DNA of 64,000 nt from Streptomyces sp. CA-210063 (GTDB lineage Bacteria; Actinomycetota; Actinomycetes; Streptomycetales; Streptomycetaceae): assembly GCF_024612015.1 (NCBI RefSeq), contig NZ_CP102512.1, forward strand, positions 6,262,001 through 6,326,000. The letters are read 5' to 3'. The position numbers and the translations under genes were made by a program. This document shows positions 44,741 to 51,279 of this stretch, in pieces (positions within the stretch are counted from its first letter, which is position 1; the number at the start of each line of letters is the position of its first letter). The notes below the pieces were generated by a model that made no database searches, was not told where the DNA came from, and was given only the letters and a program-made list of their open reading frames with translations.

Positions 44741-45025
44741 TCAGTCCGCCGTACGGAGGCGGCCGGCCTTTATGCGGTGGAGGAGGCTGGCGAGGGGGGT
44801 GGGGGTGGTGCTGAGGTGGGTGGTGGGAGTGTCGGACTCGCGGAGGTGGAGGGTGGCGGGGGAGGCGGCGATTTCGACGCACGCGTTGCCCTCGGCGCCA
44901 CCGGAGAAGGTGGACTTCTGCCAGTAGTCGGGGGCTGCGGCCAGTTCGACGCAGGTGTCTCCTTCGCCGCCTCCGGAGAACGTCGATCTCTGCCAGGTGC
45001 CGGGGCTCATCATGGGCTGCCTCAC
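44741..45025 (-). CDS. DUF397 protein with duplicated N-terminal motif
   Basis: Protein of 94 residues. The first motif WQRSTFSGGGEGDTCVELA is followed at once by WQKSTFSGGAEGNACVEIA, then the single DUF397 tail VxLRESDTPTTHL...LLHRIKAGRL (here LHLRESDTP). One DUF397 normally has one W(x)KSSFS(x)(x)(x)G(x)xCVE(V) motif, so this is an internal duplication of about 25 residues. DUF397 proteins pair with XRE regulators in Streptomyces (whiJ, abaA type). GTG 45025 opens the frame; ATGs within MRQPMMSPG are also possible. It sits 28 bases after the next gene. Confidence 0.88.
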   Translation of the reverse strand: MRQPMMSPGTWQRSTFSGGGEGDTCVELAAAPDYWQKSTFSGGAEGNACVEIAASPATLHLRESDTPTTHLSTTPTPLASLLHRIKAGRLRTAD

Positions 45026-45053
45026 GGTTCCTTCGTCCGAAGAGCTTCGGTGA

Positions 45054-45272
45054 TCACGGGCGGCGCGGGGTGAACCTGCCGGAGTTTATTGCGCGGAGGA
45101 GTTCCGTGACGGGCACGGGCGTGGTGGTGAGGATGGCGGTGGGGGTGTCGGATTCACGGAGGCCGAGCAAGTGGGGTGATATGGCGGCCAGTTCGACGCA
45201 GTTGTTGCCGTCACCGCTGCCCGAGAAGGACGACTTCTGCCAGTTGTCGCGGGTGGTCACGGCACGCCTCAC
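45054..45272 (-). CDS. DUF397 protein
   Basis: Single-motif DUF397 protein of 72 residues: DNWQKSSFSGSGDGNNCVELA, GLRESDTPTAIL, then a short helix LLRAINSGRF. GTG 45272 overlaps the stop of the XRE gene, so the two are translationally coupled, as in known XRE-DUF397 pairs in which the small protein relieves or aids the regulator. Confidence 0.92.
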   Translation of the reverse strand: MRRAVTTRDNWQKSSFSGSGDGNNCVELAAISPHLLGLRESDTPTAILTTTPVPVTELLRAINSGRFTPRRP

Positions 45273-46120
45273 AGCTCTTTCGTCAACCTGTGGATGAAGT
45301 CACGCGACCGCTCGGGGGCGAGTGACGCAGCCTCCACTTTACGGAAAAGCGTTCGAAAAGTGGTGAGTTGGGCCTCGGAGTCGATGAAGGCGGCGCCCTG
45401 CGGCGCGTCGCGCAGCGCGGTGTCCAGCTTGGGTACCGGCCCGCCAATGTACGTCATGCCGTTCGTGGCTCCGGCGAAGCCGTCCAGGTCGAAGGGGATG
45501 ACGCGCACGCTGATGTGTTCCGCTTCGGAGAGGTCCAGGATGCGCGTGAGTTGGCTTCGTGAGGCGGCACGGTCTCCCACTCTGATGCGCAGCGCGGCCT
45601 CGTGGATCACCGCCTCGTACGAGACTGGGCCGGGTTCCTCGATGATCACCCGGCGCTGTGTTCGGTGCCGCACGCGCAGGTCGAGGTCGGCCTCTGGAAG
45701 CTCGGGAACTCGATACCCGAAGACGGCGCGGGCGTAGTCCGCTGTCTGGAAGAGGCCGGGGATGTGCAGAAACTCCACGTCGAGCCGATACGTGGAGTGG
45801 TACTCCAGCTCGGCGAGGTCCAGGAACGACGTGGGCAGCAGGCCCCGGTACTCCTCCCACCAGCCGCACGCCTTCTCGCCGGCCATCGCCACCAGCGCGT
45901 CGATCAATTCCTTGTCCGTGCAGGAGTAATGGGCGGCCATCTGCCGTACGCGTTCCTTGCTGACGCCCGCCGTGCCGGACTCGATCTGGCTCATCTGTGC
46001 CGAGTCCGTCCCGAGTAGGGCGGCGGCTTCACGTCCCTTGAACCCTGCGGCCTCACGCAGTTTCCGCAGTTCGGCACCGAGGCGCTCCTGACGTGCGGTG
46101 GGCTGCTGCCTGCGCGGCAT
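45269..46120 (-). CDS. XRE-family regulator with DUF5753-type domain (WhiJ-like)
   Basis: DNA-binding protein of 283 residues. The helix-turn-helix is in LRKLREAAGFKGREAAALLGTDSAQMSQIESG (about 18-49). The remaining ~190 residues fit DUF5753, found in WhiJ/AbaA-like regulators: YHSTYRLDVEFLHIPGLFQTADYARAVF, and VPFDLDGFAGATNGMTYIG-type sequences (IPFDLDGF here). It ends in the overlap with the first DUF397 gene. ATG 46120 has a purine-rich site. It probably controls the operon and development genes. A 6-bp inverted repeat (ACTGCT-GTGA-AGCAGT, 46134-46149) stands just upstream. Confidence 0.93.
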   Translation of the reverse strand: MPRRQQPTARQERLGAELRKLREAAGFKGREAAALLGTDSAQMSQIESGTAGVSKERVRQMAAHYSCTDKELIDALVAMAGEKACGWWEEYRGLLPTSFLDLAELEYHSTYRLDVEFLHIPGLFQTADYARAVFGYRVPELPEADLDLRVRHRTQRRVIIEEPGPVSYEAVIHEAALRIRVGDRAASRSQLTRILDLSEAEHISVRVIPFDLDGFAGATNGMTYIGGPVPKLDTALRDAPQGAAFIDSEAQLTTFRTLFRKVEAASLAPERSRDFIHRLTKEL

Positions 46121-46133
46121 GACTTCCTCCCCA

Positions 46134-46149
46134 ACTGCTGTGAAGCAGT
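46134..46149 (-). promoter_or_regulatory. Possible autoregulatory operator of the XRE gene
   Basis: ACTGCT and AGCAGT flank GTGA, 14 bases before the XRE start. Inferred from symmetry and place only. Confidence 0.3.
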
Positions 46150-46340
46150 GTCTCGTTCGAGGGGAAGATTACGGCAACGACTTGCCTGGGCCCAAAATGT
46201 GGCCCTACTGTCAGTGACGCGCAGCACGCGCTGCGGAACGCCGGGCCCCCGGAAGCGCACCACTCCGTCACGCCACGACGGCTGAGGCAATGCCACCGCC
46301 CGCCCCGACCAACTCCCCACCCCCTCCACGGAGCTGACCC

Positions 46341-46751
46341 ATGCCCGAAAACGACTCCAAACCCTGGGAGTACGTCCTCCACATCCCCCAGGACCCCCGA
46401 GCCGTCACCGTCTCCCGGCGCACCCTCCGCCTCATCCTGACGATGCACGGCCTCACCGCCCTCCTGGACACCGCCGAACTCCTCGCCACAGAGCTGATCG
46501 CCAACGCCGTACGCCACACCAAGGGCCCCGCGGCCCTCCGCGTGCGCTGGTCGGGTGGCGCGCTGTGGATCGGCGCCTGGGACGCCGACCCCGAACCACC
46601 GGAACCTCCGGGCCGGTTGGCGGAGCCCGGCGCGGAGGACGGCCGAGGCCTCGCCCTCGTACGCGCCTGCACGGACGTATGGGGCTGGCAGCCGTCGTCC
46701 CGGTTCGGGCACCGGGGCAAATACGTGTGGTGCGAACTGATGGCCGCGTAG
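46341..46751 (+). CDS. HATPase anti-sigma-type ATP-binding protein
   Basis: Protein of 136 residues of the HATPase_c anti-sigma type (RsbW-like), without histidine kinase parts. The N-box is LLATELIANAVRH (near 51-63) and the G-box is DADPEPPE, then GRGLALVRACTDVWG near 100-114. Such proteins bind sigma or anti-anti-sigma partners and are a usual third member of abaA/whiJ-type loci in Streptomyces. It is divergent from the XRE gene with 220 bp between. ATG 46341 follows CGGAGCTGACC. Confidence 0.9.
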   Translation: MPENDSKPWEYVLHIPQDPRAVTVSRRTLRLILTMHGLTALLDTAELLATELIANAVRHTKGPAALRVRWSGGALWIGAWDADPEPPEPPGRLAEPGAEDGRGLALVRACTDVWGWQPSSRFGHRGKYVWCELMAA

Positions 46752-46783: not shown

Positions 46784-47662
46784 ATGGTCAGCTCGCCGCA
46801 CGAGGCGCTGCATCAGATCTGCCAGAAGGACACCGACGGCATGATCCGCAGCTTCCGGAGGCTGTTCCACGTGCCGTTTCCGGAGCCTCGCTCGATCTCC
46901 GTGGTCAACACGGACTTGACGGAGATCGCTCCGGTGGAGCGCCGGGTGGACAGCCTGGTGCGGGTGGACACCGACGAGGGCGCCTTCCTGCTGGTCCTGG
47001 AATCGCAGGGAGAGAAGGACGACAGGAAGCGGGGCAGCTGGCCGTACTACCTCGCGTACCTCCACGAGAAGTACCGCTGCGAGCCGGTGCTGATCGTCAT
47101 GACCCAGAGCCGTGCCACCGCCCGATGGGCCGCCCAGCCCATCCGGTTCGGTCTGCCGGACTGGGCCTCGCTGGTCGTACGGCCGCTCGTCCTCGGGCCG
47201 GACAACGTGCCGGTGATCGCGGACGAGGCGGAGGTGGCGCGGGATGTCACCCTCGCGGTGTTTTCGGCGATCACGCATGGTAAAGGCCGGGATGCCGCTG
47301 CGATACTGGAACCACTCGCAGCGGTTCTGGATACCGTGAACCCTGACACTGCGTCGGTGTTCGCGGAGCTTGTCGAGTCAGGCTTGGTGGACGCCCAGGC
47401 GAAGAAGGTGTGGAGGGAGCTGATGATGCCGGTGAACTACTTCTTCAAGAACCCGGTCGCGGTGAAGCTGCGAGAAGAGGTGCGGGTGGAGGAGCGGATC
47501 GCGGGCATCCTGCGCACCCTGGATCGGCGTCACATCCTGGTACCGGACTCCGTGCGGGAGCGCGTGCGCAGCTGCACCGACCCCGAGGTGCTCCAGGTCT
47601 GGCTGGACCGCGCCTACGACGTCACCGACGCGGCAGACCTGTTCGATGACGACGAAGCCTGA
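46784..47662 (+). CDS. Rpn/YhgA-like PD-(D/E)XK nuclease
   Basis: Protein of 292 residues resembling the recombination-promoting nuclease (Rpn) family, once annotated as transposases. The nuclease core spans about residues 35-130: VDSLVRVDTDEGAFLLVLESQGEKD holds the D and ExQ of the PD-(D/E)XK fold. A helical middle follows, and the last ~80 residues are a separate helical part ending DRAYDVTDAADLFDDDEA. AAAGGAG before ATG 46784 is a strong ribosome site. A second strong site, GGAGGGAG at 47412, precedes an in-frame ATG at 47423 that would make the last 79 residues alone. It starts 32 bases after the ATPase gene. It may act as a DNase in defence or be a toxin; not shown. Confidence 0.82.
   Translation: MVSSPHEALHQICQKDTDGMIRSFRRLFHVPFPEPRSISVVNTDLTEIAPVERRVDSLVRVDTDEGAFLLVLESQGEKDDRKRGSWPYYLAYLHEKYRCEPVLIVMTQSRATARWAAQPIRFGLPDWASLVVRPLVLGPDNVPVIADEAEVARDVTLAVFSAITHGKGRDAAAILEPLAAVLDTVNPDTASVFAELVESGLVDAQAKKVWRELMMPVNYFFKNPVAVKLREEVRVEERIAGILRTLDRRHILVPDSVRERVRSCTDPEVLQVWLDRAYDVTDAADLFDDDEA
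47412..47662 (+). CDS. Possible internally initiated 79-residue C-terminal product of the Rpn gene
   Basis: GGAGGGAG (47412-47419) stands six bases from an in-frame ATGATG at 47423, so translation could start there and give MMPVNYFFKNPVAVKLREE... to the normal stop. E. coli rpn genes are known to make small C-terminal proteins (RpnS) from internal starts that inhibit the full nuclease. The site here is far stronger than chance internal sites usually are, but expression is untested. Confidence 0.45.
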
Positions 47663-47969
47663 TGCGGCGAACGCGGGCTCGGAGAACGACCGGACTCCAT
47701 GGAAGCTGCCCCCGCACATCTGGCACCCGTCGGCACGACGAGCATGGCTGGAAGCTGCGGAAAGGGCCTGGACCGAAGGCTATGTGGAAAGCTTTGAGCA
47801 GCGCCGTCTGCAGCGCCTGGTCCTGAGACTCCTCTACTGGCGAGATATCGAGGCGCCGCCCGCCGTTCGCAGCAAGATCCTGGCGACCACCGACTTGGAC
47901 AAGCTCAAGATCTTGCGCGACCGCGCCTACGAAGTGACGGACCCGGCTGACATCTTCGCCCCCGAGTGA
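47646..47969 (+). CDS. Stand-alone protein resembling the Rpn C-terminal domain
   Basis: Protein of 107 residues whose last ~50 align with the end of the upstream nuclease: LRLLYWRDIEAPPAVRSK... and LKILRDRAYEVTDPADIF match LRTLDRRHILVPDSVRER... and LQVWLDRAYDVTDAADLF. The N-terminal half (PWKLPPHIWHPSARRAWLEAAE) is its own. It lacks the nuclease core. ATG 47646 overlaps the nuclease end by 17 bases with no ribosome site of its own, so it is translationally coupled. It may be an inhibitor or partner of the nuclease; inference from domain logic. Confidence 0.75.
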   Translation: MTTKPDAANAGSENDRTPWKLPPHIWHPSARRAWLEAAERAWTEGYVESFEQRRLQRLVLRLLYWRDIEAPPAVRSKILATTDLDKLKILRDRAYEVTDPADIFAPE

Positions 47970-48002
47970 CGTGTGAGGGCCGGGATGAACTCCGGCCTTC
48001 AC

Positions 48003-48368
48003 TCACTCGGAGTCCTCCCCCGCCACCCGCTCCACATCCACCGGTGGAGGCGTAGGCCTGAGCCACAGCCACCCCAGAAAGAAAACCCCCAGCCCCAGCA
48101 TCCCCACCCCCGTCCACAGGTTGATGTTGACCCCCTCCGCCTTGTCGATGTCGGCGTCGGAGGCCGTGATGCCGGCGAGGGTCACGATGATGCCGTAGAC
48201 GACGAAGAGGCCGCCGATGATGCGGCGGATGTCGAAGAGCTGGGCGGCGGTGGCGGACTTGCCCTGGAGTTCGGTGACCTCGCGCTGGACGTCGCGCTCG
48301 GAGTACCCGGAGGAACCGGGGTGCTCGGGGGGACCGGAAGAGCCCGAGGAGCCGGGGTGTTCGGACAT
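48003..48368 (-). CDS. Small two-helix membrane protein
   Basis: Protein of 121 residues. The first 30 are Ser/Gly/Pro-rich (EHPGSSGSSGPPEHPGSSG), then a charged helix (ERDVQREVTELQGK) and two membrane helices (IIGGLFVVYGIIVTLAGI and LWTGVGMLGLGVFFLGWLWLR). ATG 48368 has GGAGG ten bases upstream; a TTG nine bases earlier would leave no room for it. It follows the Na+ symporter gene by 19 bases, so it is likely an accessory or subunit of the transporter, as small partners are known for several SSS-type carriers. Confidence 0.8.
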   Translation of the reverse strand: MSEHPGSSGSSGPPEHPGSSGYSERDVQREVTELQGKSATAAQLFDIRRIIGGLFVVYGIIVTLAGITASDADIDKAEGVNINLWTGVGMLGLGVFFLGWLWLRPTPPPVDVERVAGEDSE

Positions 48369-48387
48369 GTGGATCAACCCTCCGGTG

Positions 48388-50067
48388 TCAGAACGAGAAC
48401 GGGATGTAGCACGCCGCAGCCAGGACGACCGCGCCCCAGCCCAGCAGCGCCGGCCTCCGGTACCACGCGTCGTCGCCCTCGCCGGGCGGTTCGTCCATGC
48501 CGGGGGAGCGCGTGCCGTAGACCAGGCCCTGGAGGTCCTCCTCCGGTTTGGGGGCCGTGAAGAGCGAGACCGCCACCATCACCACCGCGCCCGCCACGAA
48601 GCCCGCGATCGCGGAGACGAAGTTGGCGCCCTGGTCGGAGGGGATGTCGATGATCTCCTGCTTGTAGAGGACGAAGTAGTTGATCATTGCCGCCGTCGTG
48701 CCGGCCAGCAGGCCCCAGAAGCCGGACTTCATCGACGCGCGCCGCCAGAACATGCCGATGATGAAGACGACGAACATCGGCACGTTGAAGAAGGAGAACA
48801 GCGTCTGGAGGTAGCTCATGATGTTGGAGAAGGAGGACGCCAGGAAGGCCGTTCCGATGGAGGCCAGTACGCCGATCGCCGTGATCAGGCGGCCGAAGCG
48901 CACGTAGTAGGCGTCCTCCCTGTCCCGCACCACGTACTTCGCCCAGATGTCGCTGGTGAAGACGGTGTTGAAGGACGAGACGTTCGCCGCCATGCCCGCC
49001 ATGAACGCCGCCAGCAGGCCGGTCACGGCGATGCCGAGGACGCCGTTCGGGAGCAGGTCCTCCATCAGGTACGGGATCGCGTCGTTGTACTGGTAGCCCG
49101 ACTCGGCGGTGCCGAACCGCGGGACCAGTACGGCGGCGACCAGTCCCGGGATCATCACCAGGAAGACGATGAAGATCTTCGGGAAGGCGGCGATGAGGGG
49201 GGTGCGCTGGGCCGCCGAGAGGTTCTTCGCGGACAGCGCGCGCTGCACCTCCGCGAAGTTGGTCGTCCAGTAGCCGAAGGAGAGCACGAAGCCGAGGCCC
49301 AGGACGATCGTCAGCCAGTTCGCGCCCAGTGGATTGTCGCTGCCGATGCCTGTCCCGCCCCAGGCCGTCACGAAGTCGGGCCCATGGCTTCGCGTCAGTG
49401 AGTCGGACAGGCCGTCCCAGCCGCCGACCTTCTTCAGGCCCAGCACCGTGATCGGGATGAGGGCCGCCAGGATCACGAAGAACTGGAGCACCTCGTTGTA
49501 GATCGCCGAGGAGAGACCGCCCAGGGTGATGTACGCCAGCACGAAGACCCCCGCGACGCCGATCGACACCCACTCGGGCCAGCCCAGCAGCGCCTCGACG
49601 ACGATGGCGAGGGCGTACAGGTTCACCCCGGCGATCAGGATCGCGGCGAACGCGAACAGGACCGAGCTGAGCAGATGCGCGCCCCGGTCGAAGCGCAGCA
49701 GCAGGAACTCGGGCACCGACCGGACCTTGCTGCCGTAGTAGAAGGGCATCATCACCAGGCCGAGGAAGACCATGGCCGGGATGGCGCCGATCCAGTACCA
49801 GTGCGTGGTGTAGACGCCGTACTGCGCGCTGTTCGCGGCCATCCCGAGGATCTCGGTGGCGCCGAGGTTGGCCGCGATGAACGCGAGGCCCGTCACCCAG
49901 GCCGGCAGGGACCGCCCGGAGAGGAAGAAGTCCAGGCTCGTCCTCACGGACCGCCGGGCGGCGAATCCGATGCCGAGGACGACGACGAAGTAGAGGGCGA
50001 GGATCGTGTAGTCGAGCCAGTCGACGGGGAGCCGTAGCTCGGCCGCGAGTTCGGCGGGTTTCTCCAT
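48388..50067 (-). CDS. Sodium:solute symporter (SSS/SGLT family), probable sugar uptake
   Basis: Carrier of 559 residues with about 14 helices. Family marks are GRSLPAWVTGLAFIAANLGATEILGMAANSAQYG (residues about 50-84), the Na+ site region WWTTN-like GYWTTNFAEVQRALSAKN, and AAFMAGMAANVSSFNTVFTSDIW. The last ~40 residues are hydrophilic and end in a short hydrophobic tail. ATG 50067 faces galT across 150 bp, so both probably answer to the same galactose control, and the substrate is likely galactose or another hexose; that is inferred from context. Confidence 0.9.
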   Translation of the reverse strand: MEKPAELAAELRLPVDWLDYTILALYFVVVLGIGFAARRSVRTSLDFFLSGRSLPAWVTGLAFIAANLGATEILGMAANSAQYGVYTTHWYWIGAIPAMVFLGLVMMPFYYGSKVRSVPEFLLLRFDRGAHLLSSVLFAFAAILIAGVNLYALAIVVEALLGWPEWVSIGVAGVFVLAYITLGGLSSAIYNEVLQFFVILAALIPITVLGLKKVGGWDGLSDSLTRSHGPDFVTAWGGTGIGSDNPLGANWLTIVLGLGFVLSFGYWTTNFAEVQRALSAKNLSAAQRTPLIAAFPKIFIVFLVMIPGLVAAVLVPRFGTAESGYQYNDAIPYLMEDLLPNGVLGIAVTGLLAAFMAGMAANVSSFNTVFTSDIWAKYVVRDREDAYYVRFGRLITAIGVLASIGTAFLASSFSNIMSYLQTLFSFFNVPMFVVFIIGMFWRRASMKSGFWGLLAGTTAAMINYFVLYKQEIIDIPSDQGANFVSAIAGFVAGAVVMVAVSLFTAPKPEEDLQGLVYGTRSPGMDEPPGEGDDAWYRRPALLGWGAVVLAAACYIPFSF

Positions 50068-50110
50068 GCGCAGCTCGCTTCAGTTGGCATTCTGGTGATC
50101 TTTGTTTAAT

Positions 50111-50185
50111 TTTGATGGTGACGAGGGTGGGGACTTGTGCTTTGATGTGTTCGGTTCTGTTTGATGAGTCGATGTGATGTATCGA
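50111..50185. promoter_or_regulatory. Divergent gal promoter region with TTTGATG repeats
   Basis: TTTGATG occurs three times (50111, 50141, 50160) and TGTGAT once (50173) in a T-rich 150-bp gap, with TCGAT-N7-ATCGA at 50169-50185. I recall that Streptomyces galP1 is described with repeated TGTGAT hexamers, and these fit that pattern. The symporter promoter must lie in the same gap. Confidence 0.55.
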
Positions 50186-50217
50186 TTGCCTGATGCGGTA
50201 CGGATGGGGAGTCCGGC

Positions 50218-51279
50218 GTGAAGAAGACCTCGACCCGGCTGGCCGACGGTCGTGAGCTGATCTACTACGACCTGCGCGACGACACCGTCCGCGACGCGGT
50301 GGACAAGCGGCCCCTGGAGCGCACCGTCACCACTTCGGAGGTGCGGCGGGACCCGCTGCTCGGCGACTCCGTCGCGATCGCCTCGCACCGCCAGGGGCGC
50401 ACCTATCACCCCCCGGCGAACGAATGTCCGCTCTGCCCCTCCGAGGGCGACCGGCTCAGCGAGATCCCCGACTCCTCGTACGACGCCGTGGTGTTCGAGA
50501 ACCGCTTCCCGTCGCTGGCCGGTGACGCCGGCCGCTGCGAGGTCGTCTGCTTCACCTCGGACCACAACGCGGCCTTCGCCGACCTGACCGACGAGCAGGC
50601 CCGTCTCGTCCTGGAGGCGTGGACCGACCGCACCGCAGAACTGTCGCATCTCCCCTCCGTGGAGCAGGTGTTCTGCTTCGAGAACCGCGGTGCCGAGATC
50701 GGTGTGACCCTGGGGCACCCGCACGGGCAGATCTACGCGTACCCCTTCACCACGCCCCGTACCGCCCTGATGCTGCGTTCGCTCGCGGCCCACAAGGACG
50801 CCACCGGCGGCGAGAACCTCTTCGACGCCGTCCTGGAACGGGAGCTCGCCGACGAGCGGATCGTGCTCCAGACCGAGCACTGGGCCGCCTTCGTGCCGTA
50901 CGCGGCGCACTGGCCGTACGAGATCCACCTCTACCCGAAGCGCCGCGTGCCCGACCTGCTCGCGCTCGACGAGGACGCGCGCTCAGAATTCCCCAAGGTT
51001 TATCTGGAACTCTTGAGGCGCTTCGACCGGATCTTCGGCGAAGGTGAGCCTCCGACGCCGTACATCGCGGCCTGGCACCAGGCCCCGTTCGGCGCGCTGG
51101 AGGAGTTCGACGGCGTGCAGCGTGAGGACTTCGCGCTCCACCTCGAGCTTTTCACCATCCGCCGCACCTCCGGCAAGCTGAAGTTCCTCGCGGGTTCCGA
51201 ATCCGGCATGAACGTGTTCATCAACGACGTGCCGCCGGAGCGCGCGGCCGAGCGATTGCGAGAGGTAGCGAGTTCATGA
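50218..51279 (+). CDS. galT: Galactose-1-phosphate uridylyltransferase GalT
   Basis: Leloir pathway enzyme, 353 residues, exchanging UMP between UDP-glucose and galactose-1-phosphate. The active-site [13 protein letters not shown] holds the nucleophilic His (near residue 168-170), and the zinc-binding region CPLCPSEGD is present near the start. The second domain has [14 protein letters not shown] and ending [21 protein letters not shown] 50218 follows a short leader from the divergent promoter. Its stop overlaps galE by ATGA, so galT-galE is coupled. Confidence 0.96.

Follow-up and report, generated by a model that had tools for sequence, protein, structure and literature searches.

A divergent Rpn-like nuclease gene with a conserved internal translation start in Streptomyces: a probable toxin-antitoxin operon

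Introduction

The Rpn nucleases of Escherichia coli (RpnL/RpnS) combine a PD-(D/E)XK-type N-terminal domain, which carries a D...E-x-Q motif, with a helical C-terminal domain whose length changes in four-residue steps. An internal start precedes the C-terminal domain, and separate downstream copies of this domain occur at some loci. The same features are found in a locus of Streptomyces sp. CA-210063 and its homologues, analysed here from a 64,000-nucleotide stretch of contig NZ_CP102512.1 (positions 6,262,001 to 6,326,000; hereafter the window). The codon patterns and alignments presented below indicate that this locus is probably an actinobacterial Rpn-like toxin-antitoxin operon, with a predicted intragenic 79-residue antitoxin and a 107-residue protein as a likely second antitoxin.

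According to the part of Zhong et al. (2023; PMC10327210) on which we draw, RpnS can be made within rpn or from a separate gene (ypaA after rpnE and rpnCS after rpnC), and an internal product has been reported for the Rpn of E. coli and Clostridioides difficile. In the same part, four-residue repeats 8-20 residues past the internal start are given as a hallmark of RpnS, standalone RpnS is annotated as DUF4351 in some species, and the C-terminal domain of RpnA is described as an oligomerisation domain. The rpnE-ypaA pair of E. coli K-12 resembles the window in that a nuclease gene with an internal start is directly followed by a small gene that repeats the C-terminal product. The first 19 residues of the MG1655 ypaA frame are the same as the RpnE internal start region. 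The E. coli MG1655 ypaA gene (L206, 7817-8002) is recorded as a pseudogene, yet its protein has been detected by tagging (PMC10327210, in part). A sequence-only reading of the window that preceded this analysis had held that no such three-product arrangement was described; the separate downstream RpnS genes of E. coli (PMC10327210, in part) and rpnE-ypaA provide the precedent. The window represents a divergent family with a diverged, overlapping second gene, in a layout similar to one already known from E. coli.

Results

Organization of the locus

The nuclease and its associated products are encoded on the forward strand by the following features.

46784-47662, + strand: Rpn-like nuclease gene, likely toxin, 292 residues, ATG start, with AAAGGAG 5 nucleotides (nt) before the ATG
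46949-47029, + strand: codons of the likely catalytic residues D56, E73-x-Q75 and K82, from conservation in 123 homologues and a weak hhalign alignment with E. coli Rpn
47412-47425, + strand: internal ribosome-binding site and start codon (GGAGG core at 47412-47416, ATG at 47423), from codon conservation and a synonymous-shuffle control
47423-47662, + strand: predicted internal product, RpnS-like antitoxin, the last 79 residues of the nuclease, deduced from the conserved start
47646-47969, + strand: second gene, 107 residues, ATG start, homologous to the nuclease C-terminal domain by BLASTP and profile-profile comparison

The internal site reads GGAGGGAG (47412-47419), and 6 nt separate the end of its GGAGG core from the in-frame ATG at 47423 (residue 214), which is directly followed by a further ATG at 47426. 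The second gene shares 17 nt with the end of the nuclease gene, and the 16 nt preceding its ATG lack a ribosome-binding-like word. The sequence-only reading had placed a GGAGG-type site at 47412, an in-frame ATGATG at 47423 that could give the last 79 residues, and a second gene overlapping the nuclease by 17 bases; all of these positions were confirmed.

Conservation of the internal translation start

The internal start was analysed in 123 distinct proteins, obtained from 126 intact nuclease open reading frames (ORFs) after removal of three duplicates; L001-L004, which repeat the window and its paralogue, and partial nucleases were excluded. Sixty loci were hand-picked among the matches listed, all spanning query residue 1 or 2 to at least 284, and the frequencies are valid for that sample only. 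Residue 211, which follows the invariant Trp210, is Arg in 104 of the 123 homologues and is encoded by AGG in 95 and AGA in 9, with no other Arg codon used. Elsewhere in the same genes, AGG and AGA account for 203 of 2,900 Arg codons, and the next-highest fraction among the 44 alignment columns with at least 15 Arg residues is 37.5%. The exclusive use of AGG/AGA at residue 211 persists after clustering at 70% identity (32/32), and Trp-Arg pairs in 101 other long ORFs use these codons in only 3 of 45 cases. Residue 211 is Lys in a further 15 homologues (AAG or AAA, again giving a purine-rich site) and another residue in 4.

The start codon is conserved as well. Codon 214 is ATG in 90 genes, GTG in 27, TTG in 2 and another codon in 4, so that a start-type codon is present in 119 of 123. 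Val at this position is always encoded by GTG (27/27), compared with 1,187 of 2,992 Val codons elsewhere. A site with a start at residues 211-217 is present in 104 of the 123 genes, compared with a mean of 16.5 and a maximum of 23 in 100 synonymous shuffles. A wider, second comparison covered 44 further nuclease genes, of which 32 belong to other families of the class; the site and start are found in 34 of the 44, compared with a mean of 12.0 and a maximum of 18 in 200 shuffles. Among the genes of this set without Trp-Arg, 19 of 27 form the site from other codons, often those of Leu-Glu or Trp-Glu. In L235-L258, which come from other families of the class, Trp-Arg is mostly replaced, often by Leu-Glu or Trp-Glu, and most genes without Trp-Arg retain the site and start in place. 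Because the DNA signal is retained while the protein sequence changes, an internal start fits better than a constraint on the protein. Codon usage and the shuffle controls strongly support a functional internal start that is conserved at the nucleotide level. The earlier view of a strong internal start is thereby borne out as a sequence signal (104/104 AGG/AGA codons; 104/123 genes versus 16.5 after shuffling). The region behind the start varies in four-residue steps: segment 220-244 has a length divisible by four in 96 of 123 homologues, and at least two successive xxGx units occur in 86 of 123 under a permissive pattern.

Ribosome-binding-like sites within genes can slow ribosomes, and the internal GGAGG could be a pause or mRNA-structure element that serves the full-length protein without any short product. 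The evidence for an internal start is sequence conservation, to which such an element could also lay claim. Against a pause element, the nearby start codon is conserved together with the site, with ATG, GTG or TTG in 119 of 123 genes and GTG for every Val, and the site and start are retained in some downstream and toxin-less copies of the C-terminal domain. An internal product has moreover been reported for the E. coli and C. difficile proteins (PMC10327210, in part). A pause or structural element is very unlikely in our estimation.

The nuclease and its C-terminal domain

The N-terminal domain of the window nuclease has a predicted PD-(D/E)XK fold, and D56, E73-x-Q75 and K82 are conserved in the 123 homologues. 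At the sequence level, the resemblance to E. coli Rpn lies at the limit of detection: in hhalign comparisons with RpnA/B/C/E, D56 and E73-x-Q75 pair with D63 and E82-H-Q84, but the alignment is weak (probability 38, E 3.3e-4). Some close homologues carry the source names RpnC/YadD or YhgA-like. The window nuclease does not match the curated Rpn models TIGR01784 and PF04754 above cut-off, and it is therefore filed as Rpn-like rather than as a member of TIGR01784 or PF04754. Among 57 homologues, TIGR01784 matches weakly in 17 and PF04754 in none at E 1. DUF4351 (PF14261) gives weak matches in 11 of the 57 and matches neither window protein, and no Pfam model was found for this actinobacterial nuclease family. 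The Rpn-type assignment of the sequence-only reading holds in the form of an Rpn-like nuclease with the predicted fold and the conserved residues.

Helices are predicted in the C-terminal part at residues 224-248, 255-263, 267-277 and 283-287. The three-helix-bundle structure of RpnAS (7TH0) is absent from the sequence matches and from the listed fold matches. The C-terminal domain lies in the same ORF behind 136 of 137 complete nuclease domains. This count combines 127 of 127 with 9 of 10 from ten extra loci that were fetched to seek nucleases without the domain; it includes duplicates and one ORF cut by a contig end. The sole exception, L196 (G175), keeps the GGAGG-ATG and the first C-terminal helix, followed by unrelated sequence in a 901-codon open frame. 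A domain required for folding would also account for this co-occurrence. In the genus, 180 of 295 genomes contain a match to the nuclease or the C-terminal domain; in the class, 86 of 394 do.

The overlapping 107-residue protein

BLASTP aligns the 107-residue protein with the nuclease C-terminal region at 46% identity over 39 residues (E 1e-8, single comparison). In a profile-profile comparison, residues 37-107 align with the nuclease end (E 1.2e-18, probability 99). Judged from these alignments, the resemblance is true homology, as the sequence-only reading had proposed. Its estimate that the last ~50 residues are shared was too small, and the separate N-terminal half that it described is the protein's own but is limited to the first ~36 residues; approximately two thirds of the protein has a counterpart in the nuclease.

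The 107-residue family comprises sixteen protein clusters that are 47-91% identical, and its N-terminal segment is conserved across the family. Strong copies are present in 4 of 295 genomes. In four of six distinct loci (the window, L035, L043 and L048), the gene lies directly behind an intact nuclease; the L048 nuclease, from S. albiflavescens, is identical to that of L062. In L088, a gene of this type sits behind a nuclease and a C-terminal piece. In L176, all that is left of the nuclease is its start (a stop comes after 23 codons, by eye), which runs into the 107-residue frame, and this frame lacks an obvious start codon. The 17-nt ATG overlap is the same in L035, and an ATG is available at that place in L048. 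An intact 107-residue gene was not found in the examined DNA of L036, L037, L038, L040 and L059, five of the six other examined nucleases that are at least 75% identical to that of the window. In L037, the apparent first and last residues of the gene follow the nuclease stop in different frames with the middle gone (by eye, with a 12-residue tblastn match), which makes at least this absence probably a loss. In view of this limited distribution, the 107-residue gene is an optional addition and not the main antitoxin.

Several observations weigh against a role as second antitoxin and would suit a relic: the surviving C-terminal end of a former nuclease that has since been replaced, now with little or no function. 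The downstream copies in L046, L047, L081 and L088 share 74-88% identity with another nuclease subtype and only 40-50% with their neighbours. The low identity of the 107-residue protein to the adjacent nuclease, the lack of an intact copy beside most close relatives, the two surviving ends in L037 and the startless frame in L176 point in the same direction. The conserved N-terminal segment, the shared overlap in L035 and the ATG available in L048 are less easily reconciled with a relic. The ratios of nonsynonymous to synonymous substitution (dN/dS, NG86) of the 107-residue gene are 0.21 (window versus L035), 0.23 (L048 versus L043) and 0.29 (window versus L048), close to 0.34, 0.27 and 0.32 for the nuclease in the same pairs, which argues against mere decay. 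On this balance, a relic is possible but doubtful.

C-terminal copies at other loci

At least one downstream, same-strand C-terminal-like ORF accompanies 36 of the 123 intact nucleases (42 units), and none accompanies the other 87 within the examined downstream DNA (at least 700 nt). The pairing expected by the sequence-only reading thus recurs across genomes but is not obligatory. Since the standalone gene is usually missing, most loci would have to rely on the intragenic product alone. No standalone copy was found upstream or on the opposite strand near the 123 nucleases in the 500-4,000 nt examined; upstream DNA covered 500 nt for the 60 picked loci and 1,500-4,000 nt for most others. Standalone units occur in tandem in L007, L082 and L088. 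In L094, L096 and L097, the downstream ORF carries two C-terminal domains in one protein. The genome of the window contains a second nuclease/C-terminal pair, in which the nuclease (5293370-5294245) is 41% identical to that of the window and is followed, 176 nt downstream, by a C-terminal-like ORF of 136 residues.

The nuclease end that best matches a standalone unit is that of its own neighbour in 16 of 42 units. Among 72 standalone units, 32 first align with nucleases at residues 205-220 and 24 at residues 150-204; the homologous part sets in later in 14 units and earlier in 2. By these boundaries, the surviving or copied unit corresponds roughly to the predicted short product. Some downstream copies also retain the site with its start. 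C-terminal domains without a complete nuclease domain were found in 26 ORFs from 23 loci listed by eye, of which L057 and L186 are apparently one locus and in which some broken frames may be assembly errors of draft genomes. Under the strict pattern, 17 of these ORFs retain the site and start (mean 6.8, maximum 12 in 200 synonymous shuffles); a looser pattern gives 19 of 26. In L182 (G205), an N-terminal nuclease fragment (profile positions 1-91) precedes two C-terminal-like ORFs in tandem. L188 (G149) has two tandem C-terminal-like ORFs; a nuclease domain was not found in the 5.5 kilobases (kb) examined.

Gene neighbourhood

Developmental-type genes lie upstream of the nuclease gene.

46341-46751, + strand: abaA-like HATPase_c_2 gene (Pfam PF13581), 32 nt gap before the nuclease gene
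45269-46120, - strand: divergent whiJ-like XRE-DUF5753 regulator (Pfam PF19054 and PF13560)
44741-45025 and 45054-45272 (span 44741-45272), - strand: two bldB-like DUF397 genes (Pfam PF04149 in both)

An abaA-like gene lies upstream on the same strand in 38 of 43 nucleases that are at least 55% identical to that of the window (1,400 nt upstream examined), and a divergent whiJ-like gene in 36 of these 43 loci. Among 19 more distant nucleases, the corresponding numbers are 1 and 3. Of the 39 loci with an abaA-like gene, 28 show a distance of 35-36 nt from its last sense codon to the nuclease. From this gene order, the nuclease may be under the same control as the abaA-like gene. The whiJ/bldB/abaA (XRE-DUF397-HATPase) clusters of Streptomyces (PMC10294661, in part) contain the gene types that stand side by side at 44741-46751, where they adjoin a nuclease. 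According to the same portion of that paper, a bldB mutant of S. venezuelae strongly upregulates abaA paralogues, and IosA, whose gene occupies a comparable position, has a mass of 15 kDa and resembles no solved structure. The word nuclease is absent from the main text of the paper.

These developmental-type neighbours, together with the oligomerisation of the RpnA C-terminal domain (PMC10327210, in part), speak against a toxin-antitoxin system and for a DNA-processing nuclease with small paralogues as assembly subunits. The four-residue length steps, the toxin-less C-terminal ORFs and the patchy presence (180/295 genomes) resemble a conflict system instead, and we regard a DNA-processing role as unlikely.

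The downstream side is marked by galT, which the window, L046 and L088 all adjoin. Depending on the genome, the galT-linked site is occupied by a window-like, an L043-like or an L006-like nuclease. The three nuclease subtypes at this one site were seen in the window (47662-50218), L035, L037, L038, L040, L043, L046, L050, L088 and L092. The order in L088 is an L006-like nuclease, a window-type C-terminal piece with GGAGG-ATG, a 107-residue-type gene and galT. The simplest reading of these arrangements is an in-place exchange of one nuclease for another that left the old C-terminal end behind. Two observations are at odds with perfect equivalence of the sites: the membrane-protein and symporter genes between the nuclease and galT in the window are missing in L046 and L088, and galT was not seen in the 4.4 kb examined for L047. 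More tentatively, the site could be a toxin-swapping slot in which subtypes replace each other while the antitoxin halves of their predecessors remain as separate genes that often retain an internal start. Antitoxins in tandem would then be a record of former toxins and a safeguard should these return. The 107-residue gene would be the antitoxin of a nuclease subtype that has since disappeared, and the slot would be wired into the whiJ/bldB/abaA developmental switch.

Discussion

In the toxin-antitoxin operon favoured here, transcription would continue from the abaA-like gene into the nuclease gene and be controlled by the divergent whiJ/bldB-type regulators. The short product would be made in excess from the mRNA that it shares with the full-length nuclease, and would pair, by way of its long first helix, with the C-terminal domain of the latter and hold the nuclease inactive, as has been reported for RpnA of E. 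coli. Translation of the 107-residue protein would be coupled to that of the nuclease through the 17-nt overlap, and the protein would add a more diverged C-terminal domain, either as a back-up inhibitor or as the leftover antitoxin of an earlier nuclease at the site. Inhibition of the nuclease by either small protein is proposed by analogy with E. coli. Phage infection or another stress may free the nuclease.

The locus differs from E. coli Rpn in several respects. The second protein of the window is no recent duplicate of the neighbouring protein and possesses a distinct N-terminus, whereas ypaA copies its own RpnE; the 107-residue gene is also diverged and overlaps the nuclease gene. The window clade lies behind an abaA-like gene beside whiJ/bldB-type genes, and toxin-less C-terminal loci exist. 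The downstream copies that match another subtype, the toxin-less C-terminal genes and the whiJ/bldB/abaA-type neighbourhood look new.

If this reading is correct, the gene-within-gene toxin-antitoxin principle, which has been reported from experiments in E. coli and C. difficile, extends to a large actinobacterial family. Codon choice at a single site provides strong sequence evidence for a functional internal start ahead of experiment, and the toxin-less C-terminal genes and mismatched downstream copies offer a testable case for antitoxins that outlive their toxins.
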